Origin: Candidatus Kuenenia stuttgartensis
Lineage (GTDB): Bacteria; Planctomycetota; Planctomycetia; Planctomycetales; Planctomycetaceae
Reading direction: 5' to 3'
Assembly: GCA_945861465.1 (NCBI GenBank)
Contig: CAMAVB010000014.1
Location: 1 to 56,033 of the forward strand
Length of the DNA: 56,033 nucleotides
The notes below the pieces were generated by a model that was not told where the DNA came from, made no database searches, and worked only from the letters and a program-made list of their open reading frames with translations. Within the stretch, counting starts at the first letter, position 1. Each line of letters starts with the position of its first letter. Position numbers and translations under genes: made by a program. Below, piece after piece: positions 14,112-47,688 of this stretch.

Positions 14112-14189
14112 AGTGTTCAGTTTGAAGTGTTCAGTGTTCAGTAAGCATCATCCTGAGATCTACAGTAAACTGAAAACTGAAAACTGAAT
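14112..14189. repeat. Degenerate heptamer array between serS and tsaD
   Basis: The right half reads as CTGAAAA units repeated with period 7. The left half (GTTCAGT, GTGTTCAGTGTTCAGT) is its approximate reverse complement, so the tract can fold. It is the same kind of sequence as the arrays between 42.7 and 46.2 kb. Confidence 0.75.
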
Positions 14190-14195
14190 TCGGCT

Positions 14196-19619: not shown

Positions 19620-19790
19620 GCGTTCGCAAAGTGTTTTATCCGCCGCCTGACCGTGAACAAAAAACGGTTCAACGGCAAATGAAGTGCGGGACACAGAAAC
19701 CGGGGAACTATTGCGTGACGGCGAACTCAGTACAGATCGGCCCATCAACACCACGGGAAACGCCGATGGAAAACAGAGTTGAACCGCGAA

Positions 19791-19840
19791 TGGACGCGAA
19801 TGGACGCGAATGGACGCGAATGGACGCGAATGGACGCGAA
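19791..19840. repeat. 10-bp tandem repeat, five exact copies
   Basis: TGGACGCGAA is repeated five times exactly, preceded by a degenerate copy (GAACCGCGAA). It lies in the gap downstream of the SMP-30 gene. Confidence 0.95.
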
Positions 19841-19901
19841 GTCGTTGAATCCCATAAACTGCGATGCTGCTAGTTCACGATTCGTCTCTTAGGAGCCACG
19901 C

Positions 19902-20127
19902 AGAAATCACTGTCGTCTTCTGGACGTGGGGCACGTTTGTAACGTGCCTGGCACGATGGAATCGTGCCAGAAATAACTGTCGTCCTTTGGACGTGGGGCA
20001 CGTTTGTAACGTGCCTCGCACGATGGAATCGTGCCAGAAATAACTGTCGTCCTTTGGACGTGGGGCACGTTTGTAACGTGCCTGGCACGATGGAATCGTG
20101 CCCCACTTATTTCTGTCTCAGTCCTTA
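19902..20127. repeat. GGCACG hairpin element expanded into three 67-bp tandem units
   Basis: The units 19902-19968, 19969-20035 and 20036-20102 are exactly 67 bp each and nearly identical. Each contains GGGGCACGTTTGTAACGTGC and CACGATGGAATCGTGCC. The last unit is followed by the family terminus CTGTCTCAGTCCTTA, which reaches the stop of the minus-strand operon. Units are fully contiguous with no unique spacers, so this is not a CRISPR array. Confidence 0.92.
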
Positions 20128-41855: not shown

Positions 41856-42740
41856 ATGCATATTGCACTTTTAGGCGCTGGCGGACTTGTGGGCTCCATT
41901 TTCGCGAGCCAGATTCAATCGCGCGGTCATCGGTTGTCAGTCATCAGTCGGCAGGACTGTGACCTGTATGTTCGTGGCGAGCTGTACAAACGACTCGCCG
42001 AAGTCTCGCCTGACATCCTGATCAACTGCGCCGGCTACACTGGCAAGCCAAACGTCGATGCGTGTGAAACCGACAAGGCAAACTGCTTGGCTGGTAATGC
42101 GGTGCTGCCGGGGATGATCGCTGAAGCCTGCGACAAGATCGGAATTGCGTGGGGACATGTCTCTTCAGGCTGCATCTTCACAGGGAAGCGGCTGGATGGT
42201 GCTGGGTTTACCGAACAAGACCCGCCAAATTTTTCGTTCCGACAGAACAACTGCAGCTTCTATTCGGGAACGAAGGCCCTCGGTGAAGAAATTCTCGCGG
42301 ATGTCAGTCGCTGCTATATCTGGCGGCTGCGAATCCCTTTTTCGAACATTGACTCGTCTCGTAATTACCTCAGCAAGCTGCAGCGATACGACACGCTGCT
42401 GGAAGCGGAGAACAGTCTGTCGGAGTTGAATGAATTTGTCGCGGCTGCCTTGGATTGCTTTTCGTTGAACATAGAATTTGGCACCTACAACCTTACCAAT
42501 CCCGGCAGTGTGACCACATCCGAGGTCGTCGCATTGATCCAGGCAGCGGGAGTCTCAAAAAAACAGTTCCAGTTCTTTGACTCGGAAAGCGAATTCATGC
42601 GACTGGCCGCCAAAACCCCACGATCCAATTGCGTCCTCGACAGTTCCAAAGCCCTCACCGCCGGGCTGCGTCTCACACCCGTCCGCGAAGCGCTTCAACG
42701 ATCCCTGGATCAATGGGACCCTCAAACATGCACCGAGTAG
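41856..42740 (+). CDS. dTDP-4-dehydrorhamnose reductase-like SDR (possible epimerase/reductase)
   Basis: About 294 residues from ATG 41856; an upstream frame from 41787 runs into the repeat element. The Rossmann start is L-L-G-A-G-G-L-V-G-S. Y136-x-x-x-K140 is the SDR catalytic pair (F-Y-S-G-T-K-A-L-G-E-E). S-S-G-C-I-F-T-G and G-F-T-E-Q-D-P-P-N-F-S resemble the eukaryotic NRS/ER epimerase/reductase as much as bacterial RmlD. It lies directly before rfbB and rfbA, while no RmlC epimerase is in the locus. It therefore probably makes a dTDP-6-deoxysugar such as dTDP-L-rhamnose, possibly doing the epimerisation as well. Confidence 0.78.
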   Translation: MHIALLGAGGLVGSIFASQIQSRGHRLSVISRQDCDLYVRGELYKRLAEVSPDILINCAGYTGKPNVDACETDKANCLAGNAVLPGMIAEACDKIGIAWGHVSSGCIFTGKRLDGAGFTEQDPPNFSFRQNNCSFYSGTKALGEEILADVSRCYIWRLRIPFSNIDSSRNYLSKLQRYDTLLEAENSLSELNEFVAAALDCFSLNIEFGTYNLTNPGSVTTSEVVALIQAAGVSKKQFQFFDSESEFMRLAAKTPRSNCVLDSSKALTAGLRLTPVREALQRSLDQWDPQTCTE

Positions 42741-42751
42741 CAATCATCCCA

Positions 42752-42799
42752 AAACCTCTAACCTCTAACCTCTAACCTCTAGCCACTAACCTCTAGCCT
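42752..42799. repeat. Heptamer array 1 (AACCTCT units), RmlD-like/rfbB gap
   Basis: AACCTCT is repeated four times, then AGCCACT, AACCTCT and a partial unit, in strict 7-bp period. It ends 8 bp before the rfbB start and occupies most of the 67-bp gap. Confidence 0.9.
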
Positions 42800-42807
42800 T
42801 TCCAGAA

Positions 42808-43860
42808 ATGCAAACTCTCTTACTCACCGGCGGCGCTGGATTCATTGGTGGCTGTTTTGTCCGTCGAGCTGTCGCTGCAGGCCAGTACAAGATCATCAAT
42901 CTCGATGCACTCACGTACGCCGGCAACCTCGATTCGATTCCTGCCGAAGGGCCAAAACACCATTTTGTACACGGCAACATCGGTGACGGGGATCTTGTTT
43001 GCCGGTTGCTGGCAGAGCATAATGTTGATGCCGTCATCAATTTCGCAGCCGAATCGCATGTCGATCGATCCATTGACGGCCCGGGTGCATTCATCGAGAC
43101 GAACATCAATGGCACTTTTCGTTTGCTCAATGCGACACTGCGGCACTGGCAATCACTCGACGAAACGTCGCAGCGACGATTTCGGTTCCTGCATGTTTCG
43201 ACCGACGAGGTGTATGGCTCCCTGGGGACTGAAGGATATTTTACCGAAACGACGCCGTACTCACCCAATTCCCCCTATTCAGCATCCAAAGCAGCGTCAG
43301 ATCATCTAGTGCGAGCGTGGCATCATACCTACGGACTTCCCACGCTGATCACCAACTGCTCGAACAATTACGGCCCTTATCAGTTCCCCGAAAAACTGAT
43401 CCCCCTGATGACACTGAATGCCATCGAAGGCAGTCCACTCCCAGTTTATGGCGACGGACTCAACATCCGCGACTGGCTTTTTGTGGAAGACCATTGCGCG
43501 GCCCTGGAAACGGTGCTGGCGCAGGGCCGGGTTGGCGAAACCTATAACGTTGGCGGGGATTGTGAGCAGACCAACATCGAAATCGTGAAGACGATCTGCC
43601 GCACCGTGAACGAAGGTTTGCCGGAATTGAAGCATCGCTGTGAAGGCCTCATCACCCGAGTCAAAGACCGCCCCGGCCACGACCGCCGCTACGCCATCGA
43701 TGCCACAAAAATCAAGACAGAACTGGGCTGGAGACCAGCCACTGATTTCGCCACCGGAATCGCCGCCACCGTTCAGTGGTATATCGACAACCCTGCCTGG
43801 GTCAAACGCGTAACGAGCGGAAAATATCAACGAGAAAGACTCGGAGAAGCTAGATTCTAG
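42808..43860 (+). CDS. rfbB: dTDP-glucose 4,6-dehydratase
   Basis: 350 residues, normal length. It converts dTDP-glucose to dTDP-4-keto-6-deoxyglucose. The NAD-binding T-G-G-A-G-F-I-G is at residues 7-14, followed by [12 protein letters not shown], the active-site block S-T-D-E-V-Y-G, and the Y157-S-A-S-K161 catalytic pair. [16 protein letters not shown] and R-P-G-H-D-R-R-Y are also typical. The last four codons and the stop lie inside the direct repeat GAAGCTAGATTCTAG at 43846-43860, so the extreme C-terminus (E-A-R-F) may derive from repeat sequence. Confidence 0.96.
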
Positions 43861-43925
43861 AGGCTAGAAGCGAGAGTCTAGCAACTCGCAACTCGCCACT
43901 CGGTGCTCGCCACTCGAAGAAAAAA
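43846..43925. repeat. Heptamer array 2 and left direct repeat of the four-helix-bundle module
   Basis: From the rfbB end the sequence runs in 7-mers: GCTAGAT, TCTAGAG, GCTAGAA, GCGAGAG, TCTAGCA, ACTCGCA, ACTCGCC, ACTCGGT, GCTCGCC, ACTCGAA. The word changes midway from CTAGA-like to ACTCGCC-like. GAAGCTAGATTCTAG (43846-43860) recurs as GAAGCTAGATACTAG at 44262-44276. Confidence 0.9.
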
Positions 43926-44261
43926 ATGTCCTTTGAAGACCTTGATGTCTGGAAGCGGTCGGCGAGGCTTTCAGCGACGCTGTATCAACAGACAAAACAA
44001 CTGAAGGATTTTGGCTTTCGTGACCAGCTCACCCGCAGCGGCCTGTCGATTCCCTCAAACATCGCTGAAGGGTTCGAACGGGAGAGCAAAGCCGAAATCG
44101 CCAGATTTCTGACAATCGCCAAAGGTTCTGCAGGCGAATTGATCACCCAGATCGGCATCGAAGCCGAATTCATTGAACGCGAACTTGGCATGAGCTGGGT
44201 CGCCGAACTCAAACAACTGTCAGCCATGATGGCGTCCCTAATCCGCAAACACCGAGTTTAG
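43926..44261 (+). CDS. Four-helix-bundle protein (23S rRNA intervening-sequence/bAvd-related family)
   Basis: 111 residues, all predicted helical. The family opening is S-F-E-D-L-D-V-W-K-R-S-A-R-L, followed by F-G-F-R-D-Q-L-T-R-S-G-L-S-I-P-S-N-I-A-E-G-F-E-R and F-L-T-I-A-K-G-S-A-G-E-L. This family includes proteins encoded in rRNA intervening sequences and the accessory Avd protein of diversity-generating retroelements. Its cellular role is generally unknown, though nucleic-acid binding is likely. No reverse transcriptase is nearby. The gene interrupts the rfbB-rfbA pair, is bounded by heptamer arrays on both sides, and its stop lies inside the right array. Confidence 0.9.
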   Translation: MSFEDLDVWKRSARLSATLYQQTKQLKDFGFRDQLTRSGLSIPSNIAEGFERESKAEIARFLTIAKGSAGELITQIGIEAEFIERELGMSWVAELKQLSAMMASLIRKHRV

Positions 44262-44303
44262 AAGCTAGATACTAGCCTCTAACTTCTAGCATCTAGCTTC
44301 TTT
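44258..44303. repeat. Heptamer array 3 and right direct repeat
   Basis: Period-7 words GCTAGAT, ACTAGCC, TCTAACT, TCTAGCA, TCTAGCT run up to the rfbA start. AGAAGCTAGAT and ATCTAGCTTCT are inverted ends, so the tract can also form a hairpin. GAAGCTAGATACTAG (44262-44276) matches the left copy at 14 of 15 positions. Confidence 0.9.
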
Positions 44304-44304
44304 T

Positions 44305-45174
44305 ATGCGAAAAGGCATCATCCTTGCCGGCGGTTCTGGCACCCGGCTTCATCCCGTCACCCTCGCGGTCAGCAAGCAACTGTTGCCGATTTACGACAAG
44401 CCGATGGTGTACTATCCGCTATCCACGCTGATGCTGGCGGGGATCCGGGAGATTCTGTTGATCTCGACACCGCACGACCTGCCAGGGTTTCAGCGGTTAC
44501 TGGGTGACGGATCTCACTGGGGCTTAAATCTGCAATACGCCGCGCAGCCTAAGCCGGAAGGCTTGGCCCAGGCGTTTATTATTGGCCGGGATTTTGTCGG
44601 CGACGATGCGGCGGCTCTGGTTCTTGGGGACAACATCTTTTACGGCCAGGGATTTCGTAAAGTGCTGGACAAAGTCTCGGCGGAAACGGCGGGCGCGACG
44701 ATTTTTGGCTACCAGGTCAGCGATCCGGAGAGATACGGGATCGTGGAATTTGATAACGCTGGACGAGTGCTGTCAATCGAAGAGAAGCCGAAACAGCCCA
44801 AGTCATTGTTCGCTGTGCCGGGACTGTATTTCTACGACAACCGAGTCCTCGAGATTGCTGCAAATCTGAAACCATCGCCACGTGGCGAGCTGGAGATCAC
44901 CGACGTCAACAAGGCGTATCTCGAATCGGGCGAATTGCAGGTTGAATTGTTGTCACGCGGTTTCGCGTGGCTCGACACCGGCACCCGCGATTCGCTGCTC
45001 GACGCATGCACGTTCGTCGCCGCCATTGAAAAGCGGCAGGGCCTCAAGATCGGCTGCCCCGAAGAAATCGCCTACCGCATGGGCTTCATTGATCGCTCCC
45101 AGTTACAAAGCCTCGGCAGCGCCATGAAAAACGAATACGGCGAATACCTTGGACTAATCGCACAACAACACTAA
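44305..45174 (+). CDS. rfbA: Glucose-1-phosphate thymidylyltransferase
   Basis: 289 residues, typical RmlA length. It makes dTDP-glucose from dTTP and glucose-1-phosphate. The nucleotide-binding loop is [11 protein letters not shown], followed by [25 protein letters not shown] is the metal-binding block, and E-E-K-P-K-Q-P, G-L-Y-F-Y-D and W-L-D-T-G-T are also conserved. It works directly with rfbB, from which it is separated by the four-helix-bundle module. Confidence 0.96.
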
Positions 45175-45180
45175 AAGCAA

Positions 45181-45258
45181 CCCGAAATGTTGCAAATTGC
45201 ATGTTGCAAAGTTGCATGTTGATGAATCGCAACCTGCAACCCGCAACCTGGCTTCTAT
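45181..45258. repeat. Heptamer array 4 (GTTGCAA/GCAACCT units)
   Basis: The words are GTTGCAA, ATTGCAT, GTTGCAA, an 8-mer AGTTGCAT, then GCAACCT, GCAACCC, GCAACCT. The left half and right half are inverse (TTGCA... versus GCAAC...), so the array is partly self-complementary. Confidence 0.85.
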
Positions 45259-45269
45259 TGAGACCTCAC

Positions 45270-45917
45270 ATGCCCGGATTAGCATCAGACATAACGAGTG
45301 CTCTCAGCACACTGTGTCGAGGCTGCGAAGGGATCGAAGCGGTATTGATGATGGTTACTGATGGAAATCGATTTAGTCGAGCCCTGACGGACCTGCAGCA
45401 ACTGGCACTTGATCAGCATATCCCAATCGCCATTGTCGGTGGCTTGGCAGCGATTCGATATGGCTATCCGGCGGCAACTCAGGATATTGATATTGCGGTC
45501 TGCAAAGATCAGTTGGGAAAACTGATTCAATGGGCTCCCCGATATGGCATGGTGGTAGCGTGGGAATCGAAAAGCGGATGGCATACATTGACTCACGGCG
45601 ACGTGGAAATCAACGTGGTTCCTGAAGGCGGACGAGCCCGAGATTCCTCCCCGACCGAAATTCCCGGCCCGCCTCAGATGGGCGTTGACAGCGGCCTCGA
45701 CTATGCGTCGATCGAAAGCTGGGTCGAGTTGAAGATCAGTTCAGGCAGGCAGAAAGATCGAGCCCATGTGGTGGAAGTATTGAAGAAATCAGACGAGGCA
45801 ACAATCGATATGATTCATGATCACCTAACGAATGTCCACGTGCAATATGAATTGACATTCAGTCAGTTGCTCGGCGAAGCCATCGAAGAGCGTCAACAGG
45901 AAAAAGACCGCCGGTAG
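45270..45917 (+). CDS. Nucleotidyltransferase-superfamily protein
   Basis: About 215 residues from ATG 45270; a frame opened at 45201 starts inside the repeat array, and ATG 45348 is a plausible shorter start. The core I-V-G-G-L-A-A-I-R-Y-G-Y followed by A-T-Q-D-I-D-I-A-V is the G-G...D-x-D pattern of pol-beta-type nucleotidyltransferases. E-I-N-V-V-P-E-G-G supplies a further acidic residue, and K-I-S-S-G-R-Q-K-D-R-A-H-V is family-like. Such proteins can be kanamycin-transferase-like enzymes or antitoxin/AbiE-like. No toxin partner is adjacent. The function in this locus is unknown; it may be a passenger. Confidence 0.72.
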   Translation: MPGLASDITSALSTLCRGCEGIEAVLMMVTDGNRFSRALTDLQQLALDQHIPIAIVGGLAAIRYGYPAATQDIDIAVCKDQLGKLIQWAPRYGMVVAWESKSGWHTLTHGDVEINVVPEGGRARDSSPTEIPGPPQMGVDSGLDYASIESWVELKISSGRQKDRAHVVEVLKKSDEATIDMIHDHLTNVHVQYELTFSQLLGEAIEERQQEKDRR

Positions 45918-45939
45918 CGTGCGGAGCAACTGAGAGCAA

Positions 45940-46143
45940 ATTGGAATCGCAGAGTTGCACGATGCACGTTGACGAATCGCAAGGCTGGAAAGTTTCACGT
46001 TGCACGTTGAAGAATCGCAGAATCGCAGAATCGCAGAGTTGCAAGTGGCACGTTAATGAATCGCAACAACCTGCAACCAGCAACCAGCAACCAGCAACCA
46101 GCAACCTGCAATCTGCAATCTGCAACTGAACTTCCAGCCTCTA
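45940..46143. repeat. Heptamer/octamer array 5 before the flippase
   Basis: The longest of the arrays contains AGAATCGC three times with period 8, then CAACCAG four times with period 7, CAACCTG, CAATCTG twice, and CTCTAGC-type words at the end. Its left part carries TTGCACG/GTTGCACGTT words inverse to the right part. Translated, it gives a false N-terminal extension of the flippase. Confidence 0.9.
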
Positions 46144-46151
46144 GCCACTCT

Positions 46152-47627
46152 ATGAACGGTGTCAAGACTTTGCGGAAGCCGATGGATTTTCACAGCAGTG
46201 TTCGATGGACTGCCAGTGCTCAGTACTTCAGCGAAGCCGTCAACTTTGTGACATCCATGGCCGTGGCCAGAGTGTTGCAGCCGGACGATTATGGTTTGAT
46301 GGGAATGGCGGTCGTTTTTGTCGGGCTTTTGGGACTTTGGCAGAGCCTGGGATTCAGCGTGGCAATTGTGCAGCGGAAGGACTACTCCGAAGCGTTTCTG
46401 CATTCGGTATTTTTCCTGAATCTTGCGATGGGGCTGATGATCGCGGGCCTGATGGGGTTTGGTAGCCCGTTGATCGCAGCAATGTTCGGCGACGAACGCA
46501 TAGGGCCGCTTGTTGCCGTCTTAGGGATTGCATTTGTTTTCACCACGCCAGGATTGGTTCCGTCGTCGATCCTGAGACGGGATATGGAGTTCGATCGCCT
46601 GGCGATGACGGGCATGGCTTCGACAATGACGACGGCGATTGTCGCAGTGGTGATGGCCTACACGGGGTTCGGCGTCTGGTCGCTGGTCGCATCGTCGATT
46701 GCCGGGCAGCTTGTGCACACTGTGATGCTCTACGCTGTCAGTGACTGGCGTCCTCGGATGGTCTTTCGCTGGTCGGAAGTTCGTCCCGTCATCGGATTTG
46801 GCCTGAATTTCACGGGAAACCTCACAATTCAACATTTCGCAAAAGAATCGGACAAATTCATCATCGGTCGATTCCTTGGGACATCCTTGCTCGGATACTA
46901 TTCACTCGCTTATCGGATACTTAGCTTCCCCCGGAAGGCGATCTTCCAAATTGTAGGGACTGTACTGGTTACAAAACTCTCCCGACTTCAGAACAATGAC
47001 GCTGAACTGAAGGACGTCTATCTACGAATCTCTGGGGCGATCGCATTTGCGACATTTCCGCTGATGTTGGGAATCATGTGCATCGCGACGCCCTTTGTGA
47101 CAGTCGTGTTGGGAGCGAAGTGGCTTCCATCCGTTCCCCTGATCCTGATTCTGGCCCCGATTGGCATGCTGCAGTCCGTCGAGGTAACAACGAACCAGCT
47201 GTTTGTCGCCAAGGGTCGAGCTGACTGGATGTTTCGTTGGTCACTTGTCCATGCAGCACTGACCGTTGCCAGTTTTCTCGCGGGGCTGCCCTGGGGCCTG
47301 CATGGAATGGCGATTTCCTACTCTGTCGTCTCGGTGATCTTGTTCTTTGGCGTGTACTCGATTGTGTTTCGCCTTGTTGATGGTTTATCCATTGGTGATC
47401 TGATGAAAACCCTGCTGCCTCATTTTGCTTCCGCAACTGCCATGGCGGTGATTGTCACGACTTTTCGGATGACGCTGGAGTGGAACGGAGCGTCACCGCT
47501 CCTCGTACTTGTCGCAACTGTTCCTGTTGGAATCCTGAGCTATTGGGGCATAATCCTCTGTTTTCGCCCCCTGTGTCTGGATGACTATCTCCGCTTGCTG
47601 CCAAGGTTCAATCAACGCTCGCAATAG
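46152..47627 (+). CDS. Wzx-type polysaccharide flippase (MOP superfamily)
   Basis: About 491 residues from ATG 46152 (M-N-G-V-K-T-L-R-K-P). The longer frame from 46056 only translates the repeat array. Around 12-14 hydrophobic segments are visible. The N-terminal block F-V-T-S-M-A-V-A-R-V-L-Q-P-D-D-Y-G-L-M-G and the later G-L-N-F-T-G-N-L-T-I-Q-H and F-L-G-T-S-L-L-G-Y-Y-S-L-A-Y-R are typical of the Wzx/RfbX lipopolysaccharide flippases. It moves the lipid-linked oligosaccharide across the inner membrane. Confidence 0.92.
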   Translation: MNGVKTLRKPMDFHSSVRWTASAQYFSEAVNFVTSMAVARVLQPDDYGLMGMAVVFVGLLGLWQSLGFSVAIVQRKDYSEAFLHSVFFLNLAMGLMIAGLMGFGSPLIAAMFGDERIGPLVAVLGIAFVFTTPGLVPSSILRRDMEFDRLAMTGMASTMTTAIVAVVMAYTGFGVWSLVASSIAGQLVHTVMLYAVSDWRPRMVFRWSEVRPVIGFGLNFTGNLTIQHFAKESDKFIIGRFLGTSLLGYYSLAYRILSFPRKAIFQIVGTVLVTKLSRLQNNDAELKDVYLRISGAIAFATFPLMLGIMCIATPFVTVVLGAKWLPSVPLILILAPIGMLQSVEVTTNQLFVAKGRADWMFRWSLVHAALTVASFLAGLPWGLHGMAISYSVVSVILFFGVYSIVFRLVDGLSIGDLMKTLLPHFASATAMAVIVTTFRMTLEWNGASPLLVLVATVPVGILSYWGIILCFRPLCLDDYLRLLPRFNQRSQ

Positions 47628-47648
47628 CGGCGCAGCGATGCATCAGCG

Positions 47649-47682
47649 GCACGATTCAGCGACGGCACGATTCAGCGACGGC
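47649..47682. repeat. 16-bp tandem duplication before the sulfotransferase
   Basis: GGCACGATTCAGCGAC is present twice in direct succession, just upstream of the ATG at 47689. Its translation would give an artificial N-terminal extension if an earlier start were used. Confidence 0.8.
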
Positions 47683-47688
47683 AAAATA

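Follow-up and report, generated by a model that had tools for sequence, protein, structure and literature searches.

Heptamer arrays of a planctomycete polysaccharide locus as the probable arms of an insertable cassette carrying a PF05635 gene

The five consecutive gaps of an exopolysaccharide (EPS) locus in Candidatus Kuenenia stuttgartensis, which lies on a stretch of 56,033 nucleotides (assembly GCA_945861465.1, contig CAMAVB010000014.1; hereafter the window), contain tandem arrays of seven-base words. Our comparisons indicate that these heptamer arrays are probably the two arms of a small (~0.4-0.5 kb) insertable cassette around a gene of the PF05635 family (23S_rRNA_IVP, "four helix bundle"; hereafter the IVP gene), together with the derivatives of this cassette. 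A first-pass annotation, made from the letters of the window alone, had taken the arrays as a mark of glycan clusters; this specificity was rejected, since the neighbours of IVP loci are of all kinds, and the arrays accompany PF05635 genes and their gene-less relatives instead.

One complete cassette occupies the gap between rmlB and rmlA, the genes matching GDP_Man_Dehyd/Epimerase and NTP_transferase, which from their sequences we take to be RmlB-like and RmlA-like. Its parts are:

43843 to 43925, + strand: 5′ arm, an upstream heptamer array of CTAGAAG-type and then ACTCGCC-type words, overlapping the rmlB stop codon (43858-43860)
43926 to 44261, + strand: PF05635 gene (23S_rRNA_IVP / four helix bundle, 111 aa), Pfam E 2.2e-26
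44262 to 44304, + strand: 3′ arm, a downstream heptamer array (CTAGCTT/CTAGCAT), complementary to the outer 5′ arm and running to the rmlA start

The overlap with the rmlB stop codon agrees with the earlier remark that the arrays extend into stop codons. The encoded protein belongs to PF05635 (92.6 bits against a cut-off of 33.8), also matches TIGR02436 (94.6 bits against a cut-off of 24) and NF008912, and has solved relatives in the PDB (2gsc and 2rld); against phages it gave no match at E 1e-5. Folding of 43840-44310 gives a long stem between the 3′ arm and the outer portion of the 5′ arm; it runs from the rmlB end to a point before rmlA and encloses the whole IVP open reading frame (ORF) (minimum free energy -158.9, z -3.3; 0/100 shuffles equally stable). 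Inverted terminal sequences closing the ORF in one stem-loop are also a feature of 23S rRNA intervening sequences; the insertion here lies between the RmlB-like and NTP-transferase genes and not in a 23S rRNA helix.

The arrays reported for the five gaps and near position 14112 are all present. Tandem Repeats Finder called period-7 arrays in 5/5 gaps from the rmlD-like stop (42740) to the flippase start (46152), at 42753-42799 (AACCTCT), 43845-43916, 44272-44301, 45187-45250 and 46067-46126 (CAACCAG), together with an array of the 8-mer AGAATCGC at 46011-46037, and at a second site near 14150 (14112-14142 and 14167-14188). In a sliding test, in which 35 positions were compared at one lag and at least 22 equal positions defined a region, lag 7 gave five regions in the 56-kb window, lying in four of the five EPS gaps and near 14150, the array in gap 45175-45269 being detected by Tandem Repeats Finder alone; no region was found at lags 4, 5, 6, 11, 12 and 13, one at lag 8, three at lag 9, one at lag 10 and four at lag 14, a multiple of 7. 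A common threshold of 20 of 28, chosen after the first loci had been seen, was applied in the later comparisons. At this threshold the 3.4-kb stretch of the window carries four period-7 arrays, compared with nine (and two at lag 5) in 20 other stretches (400 kb) of the same genome (8.2 Mb in 474 contigs, the window being contig C14), in which lags 4, 8, 10, 11 and 13 gave none; the arrays are therefore a local cluster. As tandem seven-base units in intergenic DNA they correspond to the heptamer class of short tandemly repeated repetitive (STRR) sequences.

A link of the arrays to four-helix-bundle genes, which the first-pass annotation had named for testing, was borne out. The same genome has eight PF05635 matches, seven of them over the cut-off, and six of these seven have a period-7 array nearby, each with its own word; L003 is one-sided and weak, L005 is cut downstream by a contig end, and L006 has no array. 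In the phylum, 48/99 genomes have the family, and 15 of the 29 best loci from other genomes (L009-L037) carry an array at threshold, with periods 7, 8 or 9. A broad scan with one genome per species yielded 80 loci, the best of at least 587 confirmed stretches, which were found with one conserved peptide pattern and so represent one conserved part of the family; gene calls were naive ORFs, and arrays were sought within 300 bp. At the 76 loci with enough sequence on both flanks, period-7/8 arrays were found upstream of 58 IVP genes, downstream of 34, on either side of 63 and on both sides of 29, versus 32, 23, 51 and 4, respectively, of 369 other genes in the same loci, and on either side of 9 of 87 small control genes (<=160 aa). 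When lags 3-21 were compared, only 7, 8 and the multiples 14, 16 and 21 exceeded 2/76 regions, the upstream share being 67% at lag 7 and 10.5% at lag 8, with 0 in mononucleotide shuffles at both lags. Counting any available side and periods 7-9, an array stands at 66/80 loci, distributed over Pseudomonadota (16/17), Bacteroidota (11/15), Bacillota (10/12), Acidobacteriota (8/10), Planctomycetota (8/9), Gemmatimonadota (3/3) and further phyla with one or two loci each; it was not found at the one Cyanobacteriota and the one Thermodesulfobacteriota locus of the 80. All IVP loci scored together give 91/123 with an array.

Several IVP genes of genome G013 (L050-L057) are by eye flanked by period-6 GGGTTC arrays instead of heptamers, and an inverted sequence around GTTCACGTAGCGCTTGC recurs at them. 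Comparison of related paralogues of G079 and G013 gave no clean element borders. Two tandem PF05635 matches lie on one strand, ~120 bp apart, at L358 (G088:C1:594893-595645). At four proteobacterial loci (L132, L100, L095 and L091), 23S rRNA as the insertion site was rejected, as Rfam gave only tRNAs.

We propose that the cassette would consist, in order, of a mostly G-rich array of seven-base units, usually starting at the stop codon of the preceding gene, the PF05635 ORF and, usually just past the IVP stop codon, an array that would be the reverse complement of the upstream arm. The upstream array was G-rich in 52/60 and the downstream array C-rich in 29/35 cases. The reverse-complemented downstream flank had at least three 8-mers in common with the upstream flank in 59/76 elements, compared with 8% of mismatched flank pairs and 75/369 control genes, and same-strand sharing between flanks was seen in 14/76. 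The mean duplex energy was -73.9 for an element's own arms and -52.6 with the arm of another element; the own-arm duplex lay below all 20 shuffles in 47/75 elements and beyond the 95th percentile of other partners in 29/75. Where an array and a same-strand gene in front of it were present, the upstream array started at most 35 bases from the preceding stop codon in 39/49 cases, although gaps are often short in general (at most 20 bases in 39% of same-strand control gaps); the downstream array started at most 10 bases from the IVP stop codon in 21/35. The preceding gene lies on the strand of the IVP gene in 60/72 cases, versus 259/390 for control genes.

The words themselves are diverse, with 59 distinct ones among 67 upstream arrays, and AG occurs in 52/67 of them, against about 45% expected. 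That the protein sets the word was rejected, word and protein similarity being only weakly correlated (Mantel r 0.136, 0/2000 permutations as high, n=77), with word sharing highest in four close pairs. A ring-protein ruler modelled on TRAP, in which the IVP subfamily sets the period, was likewise rejected as stated: in a quickly built IVP tree with 90 labelled rows, at most 13 of them of the minority type, 10 changes between period 7 and 8/9 were counted, without shuffled rows for comparison.

Sites that are occupied in some genomes or records and empty in others, as expected of a transposable element, were found in Nostoc, Calothrix and Rhizobium. One junction of Nostoc plasmids carries a cassette in three records and a 3-base gap in five (record H29 not fetched), and the next junction a different cassette in one record and 0-3 bases in seven; in Calothrix and relatives, two have a cassette and three a 3-base gap (record H33 not fetched). 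A possible TTCTA stands on both sides in Nostoc, and nothing clear was seen in Calothrix. Between nuoC and nuoD of Rhizobium, the full query with its cassette was matched by 23/60 genomes and not by the other 37; 27 of the latter sites were read, and 24 are without an array (best period-7 score 15). The remaining three are relics: L232 and L236 keep one arm, recognised by its letters at scores under the threshold (18 and 17), and in L245, whose 5′ side was not read, part of the gene survives with the 3′ arm. For the window's own junction, 40 genomes were searched and 29 relatives' loci read, none of which matches the window IVP; rmlA follows rmlB directly in 16/29, with gaps of 5-223 bases and no heptamer array in those 16 gaps (best score 17 of 28), and the rmlD-rmlB gap of four relatives has no heptamer array either. 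Since junctions without the gene lack arrays, the three Rhizobium relics aside, the gene and its arrays behave as one intercistronic unit. At several junctions, comparison thus shows the unit either complete or entirely missing between genes that otherwise adjoin; the arrays come and go with the gene, and a single arm can outlast a gene that has decayed or been lost. The idea of a trace of a mobilising mechanism is thereby supported, arrays being gained and lost with the PF05635 gene at defined junctions and gene-less copies existing, and the pattern is not the random scatter without a tie to gene gain or loss that had been named beforehand as speaking against it. Recombination joints of a sugar cassette, the other suggestion, are not supported, because the same structure occurs in nuoC|nuoD, carA|carB and plasmid operons, the first two of these being gene names that we assign from sequence.

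An IVP gene followed by a carB-like start region was also seen at L091, L360, L365, L367 and L369 (Ramlibacter, members of the family of L125), where the gene is presumably carB as judged from its sequence; carA|carB and nuoC|nuoD look like recurrent insertion sites.

The 23 Rhizobium cassettes allowed the two arms to be followed as they diverge, IVP identity to the first one reaching down to 54% with four broken frames set aside. Their words differ by group (CAATAGG, CGAATAG and TAGTGAG), and do so in both arms. A 22-pair inter-arm stem, taken from a sequence-only alignment (A3) and the consensus fold computed on that same alignment, a derivation that by itself raises the share of paired cells, was paired in 94.8% of cells, versus 82.2% in shuffles (0/500 as high). 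Cells changed on both sides numbered 67 versus 32, and the covariation score was 0.353 versus 0.150, each with 0/500 shuffles as high; pairs with a double change (9 vs 7.8) and further pair types (18 vs 18.8) were not above shuffles. Sliding the stem by 1-3 columns lowered pairing to 26-48%. The duplex energy was -53.5 with the own arm, -54.6 with the arm of an IVP at least 90% identical, -47.7 at 60-75% IVP identity and -39.7 below 60%, the last including pairs with the four broken ones. The comparison shows arms that stay paired through compensatory changes, a pattern to be expected if pairing is selected for and equally if the arms are copied from one another.

Arrays without the gene are frequent as well. 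For an estimate of their density we sampled stretches placed at contig starts or round coordinates, not at random, in genomes picked by IVP copy number. Twenty IVP-positive genomes of the phylum, including that of the window (1.11 Mb sampled), gave 45 period-7 arrays, none of them near an IVP match, and 18 IVP-negative genomes (715 kb) gave two, both at the lowest score counted; the first half of the sample alone had given 22 versus 0. The density was 55.6 arrays per Mb with at least three IVP copies versus 3.1 with one or two (Spearman 0.52, p 8e-4, for copy number against density in 38 genomes, not corrected for kinship). An inverted partner within 400 bp or inside was found for 29/53 arrays, counted on a finer split, versus 2 and 5 of 53 in controls, and in six genomes the words were shared with the genome's own IVP arrays in 21/49 cases versus 16/245 with those of the five others. 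By this comparison, gene-less arm pairs are common in several IVP-rich genomes and share words with the IVP cassettes of the same genome. One such element, ORF-less and resembling a miniature inverted-repeat transposable element (MITE), with arrays at both ends, is nested inside an IVP gene (L196:1049-1613); its core recurs 97 times in 43 of 72,556 plasmid records, from Nostocales genera, and the ends of the six copies that were read are alike and built of heptamers, a stretch being replaced in one copy.

The remaining gaps of the window are best read as gene-less copies and relics, namely gene-less pairs and a single relic arm:

42741 to 42807, + strand: single orphan array (AACCTCT/AGCCTCT) between rmlD and rmlB; Tandem Repeats Finder and lag test
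45175 to 45269, + strand: gene-less inverted array pair (GTTGCAA... / ...GCAACCT) after rmlA; Tandem Repeats Finder
45918 to 46151, + strand: larger array cluster without a gene, in front of the flippase gene (GTTGCAC, AGAATCGC, GCAACCA, ending CTCTAGCC); Tandem Repeats Finder and lag test
14112 to 14194, strand not given: gene-less inverted array pair (GTTCAGT / ACTGAAA); Tandem Repeats Finder and lag test

The orphan array has words similar to those of the 3′ arm at 44262-44304 and is unpaired by itself when folded; it is probably a left-over cassette arm, a reading suggested by the Rhizobium relics, which keep one arm after gene loss. The pair at 14112-14194 has words identical to those of cassette L002 of the same genome and a predicted hairpin with z -2.5 (4/200 shuffles equally stable). 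The hairpin of 45175-45270 has z -2.1 (8/200), and that of the 45918-46151 cluster is weak (z -1.3; 20/200).

Heptamers of a known word family provided a further comparison. GGGAATC heptamers form 70 and 75 inverted pairs in two Xanthomonas genomes (PMC4692102). In the family that contains the Lysobacteraceae genome of L125, 119 genomes, presumably including xanthomonads, were searched for triple GGGAATC and for PF05635, which were found in 38 and 54 genomes, respectively, and together in 30 (odds ratio 8.9, p 5e-7), so that GGGAATC arrays occur in 30/54 IVP-positive versus 8/65 IVP-negative genomes. At 30 IVP loci, the best match of 30 of the 54 genomes, an array at threshold stood on either side in 21; GGGAATC itself lay in the IVP flank of 5/30, and GGGATTC and GTGAATC in others. 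The eight IVP-negative genomes would be left with arrays if they had lost their genes, or the arrays do not need IVP.

The PF05635 family and the 23S intervening sequence are already known, and the latter is the closest known kind of element. In Leptospira and Coxiella the same PF05635 ORF lies in the loop of an inverted terminal pair, in sense with the host transcript; the cassette described here differs in lying between protein genes, in having common gene-less copies and in having heptamer arrays as arms, with a different word in nearly each element. The Coxiella sequence carries three tandem heptamers (GACAGAT) before its ORF, which encodes the protein S23p, their copy number varying between strains; it has 28-bp inverted ends and is excised from the transcript by RNase III (PMC4990558). 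According to the same source, S23p has no known function, a Xanthomonas relative is a toroidal pentamer, and older proposals held such intervening sequences to be mobile or remnants of transposition. The STRR sequences, the TAACTGA repeats (PMC4679880) and the GGGAATC-type repeats of Xanthomonas and Nostoc (PMC4692102) are likewise intergenic heptamer arrays, and some relatives' gaps are described there as free of repeats. Each of these two papers treats one word family, whereas here the words appear as interchangeable arms of one kind of element; in this work (PMC4679880 / PMC4692102) MacGregor put forward the speculation that the mobile element could be a protein that binds the repeats, and "S23" and "four helix" occur 0 times in the two main texts. 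Nothing tying PF05635 genes generally to heptamer arrays was found in a literature search of titles and abstract starts, most subscription journals lying outside it.

Two mobile systems invite comparison. REP/REPIN-RAYT systems comprise a gene flanked by inverted repeats and many gene-less hairpins in the same genome, and IVP cassettes work alike; RAYT is a Y1 nuclease, in contrast to the four-helix bundle of IVP, and the ORF of the window's unit is PF05635 and not a Y1 transposase gene. Classical MITEs are also gene-less inverted-repeat elements, as is the Nostocales family whose ends consist of heptamers and which interrupts one IVP gene. MITE ends are fixed per family, whereas the words of the cassette arms are nearly all distinct from element to element (59/67).

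How such a unit might persist and spread can be outlined conditionally. A co-transcribed cassette would fold into a long stem-loop and be nearly harmless inside an operon; by analogy with 23S rRNA intervening sequences, this stem-loop would probably be cut by RNase III. The IVP protein might bind the arm repeats in the RNA or DNA of its own element; such binding could help arms to be copied elsewhere, including, in trans, those of gene-less copies. More tentatively than the cassette itself, we suggest that IVP cassettes and gene-less hairpins might form an unnamed, phylum-spanning mobile class without a classical recombinase, in which heptamer arrays would be the recognition ends, the word of both arms would be rewritten together in each lineage and kept only by their mutual match, many published heptamer repeats (TAACTGA, GGGAATC, STRR) would be gene-less copies, and the 23S intervening sequence a specialised site.

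Proteins labelled "four helix bundle" under PF05635 occur in many phyla, and bacterial heptamer arrays have been described for years with no agreed origin; if the two belong together, both puzzles reduce to a single system open to test. From it follow predictions of where arrays should be found (genomes with several IVP copies) and of how they should be built (inverted pairs); stray arrays should be gene-less copies and relics, and 23S rRNA intervening sequences a special case. Arms that change their word yet stay complementary would be an unusual way of preserving the ends of an element. Many bacterial phyla have cassettes built on this plan.

Several observations weigh against an insertable cassette with an active protein. 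We know of no catalytic or nuclease motif in IVP. Arrays at threshold are missing from 14/29 of L009-L037, 14/80 broad-scan loci and 32/123 IVP elements overall; the own arm is the best of all partners in just 20/75 elements; and the period does not follow the IVP clade, contrary to a rigid protein ruler. No transposition event was observed, nor a consistent target-site duplication at the Nostoc and Calothrix junctions. Four of the 23 Rhizobium IVP genes look broken (L210, L219, L222 and L226) while their arms persist. In the density sample, 11/20 IVP-positive genomes had no array, array-bearing genomes numbered 9/20 versus 2/18 (p 0.03), and two genomes (G032 and G011) gave 23/45 arrays, so that the dosage link rests on few genomes; the z-scores of the hairpins in the gene-less gaps of the window are modest. 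In Coxiella no sign of S23p made in vivo was found, the protein was without growth effect in E. coli, and the authors give the RNA the greater weight (PMC4990558); for Coxiella at least, this argues against an active protein.

The alternative that survives best, although we consider it unlikely, is that an unrelated mobility enzyme, such as a Y1/REP-type transposase or a reverse transcriptase, moves the heptamer hairpins, with IVP as cargo or as a hitchhiker profiting from the loop. The lack of a known catalytic motif in IVP would fit this, Y1_Tnp is commoner in IVP-positive genomes (36/48 vs 26/51, p 0.02), and 0/45 sampled arrays lay near an IVP match, so that gene-less arrays outnumber cassettes. 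Neither enzyme is universal, however: G001 (25 IVP matches, 88% complete) has no Y1_Tnp match, G012 (14 IVP matches, 97% complete) no reverse transcriptase match and G034 (one IVP, 100% complete) neither, and array density climbs with IVP copy number. Reverse transcriptase (RVT_1) or Y1 transposase as a required partner was therefore rejected, and since in addition no consistent target duplication was seen, the IVP gene itself may be the mobility factor, or another enzyme acts.

It is a good deal less probable that the arrays are RNA regulatory sites, such as attenuators, protein-binding repeats or stabilising or processing stems, which evolve locally by slippage and selection and are not mobile ends. 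The arms do pair and covary, AG is enriched in the upstream words, and the Xanthomonas relative is a pentameric ring (PMC4990558). Most gene-less junctions are nevertheless without arrays, arrays can outlast the lost gene, lone inverted pairs occur at many loci, and one gene-less element sits inside an IVP ORF. Least credible is that heptamer microsatellites of the STRR kind arise everywhere by slippage and that IVP genes land beside them by chance: some genomes have many heptamer repeats with no IVP gene nearby, heptamer repeats of this sort are known from published work (PMC4679880, PMC4692102), and GGGAATC arrays occur in the 8/65 IVP-negative genomes of one family, but this view is largely refuted by IVP-free junctions that show no arrays, relics apart, by inverted arms that match each other above those of other elements, and by the two marginal arrays in 715 kb of 18 IVP-free genomes.

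Pfam assigned the genes of the window locus to bacterial sugar transferase, Wzy_C ligase, RmlD_sub_bind, GDP_Man_Dehyd/Epimerase, PF05635, NTP_transferase and Polysacc_synt (the flippase), and left one ORF between the NTP_transferase and Polysacc_synt genes without a match. This ORF (45270-45917) sits between two gene-less array clusters; no match was found in Pfam (E 0.001, longer frame from 45201), NCBIfam (E 1) or PHROGs (E 0.01), and by eye it carries what we take to be a nucleotidyltransferase-like GG..A...G....T.D.D motif. Elsewhere in the window, a perfect 10-bp tandem array (CGCGAATGGA x5.6) lies at 19785-19840 and, beside it, three copies of a 67-bp unit ending in GGCACGATGGAATCGTGC at 19901-20102; a related GGCACGAT sequence is found at 986-1024 and 47643-47683.

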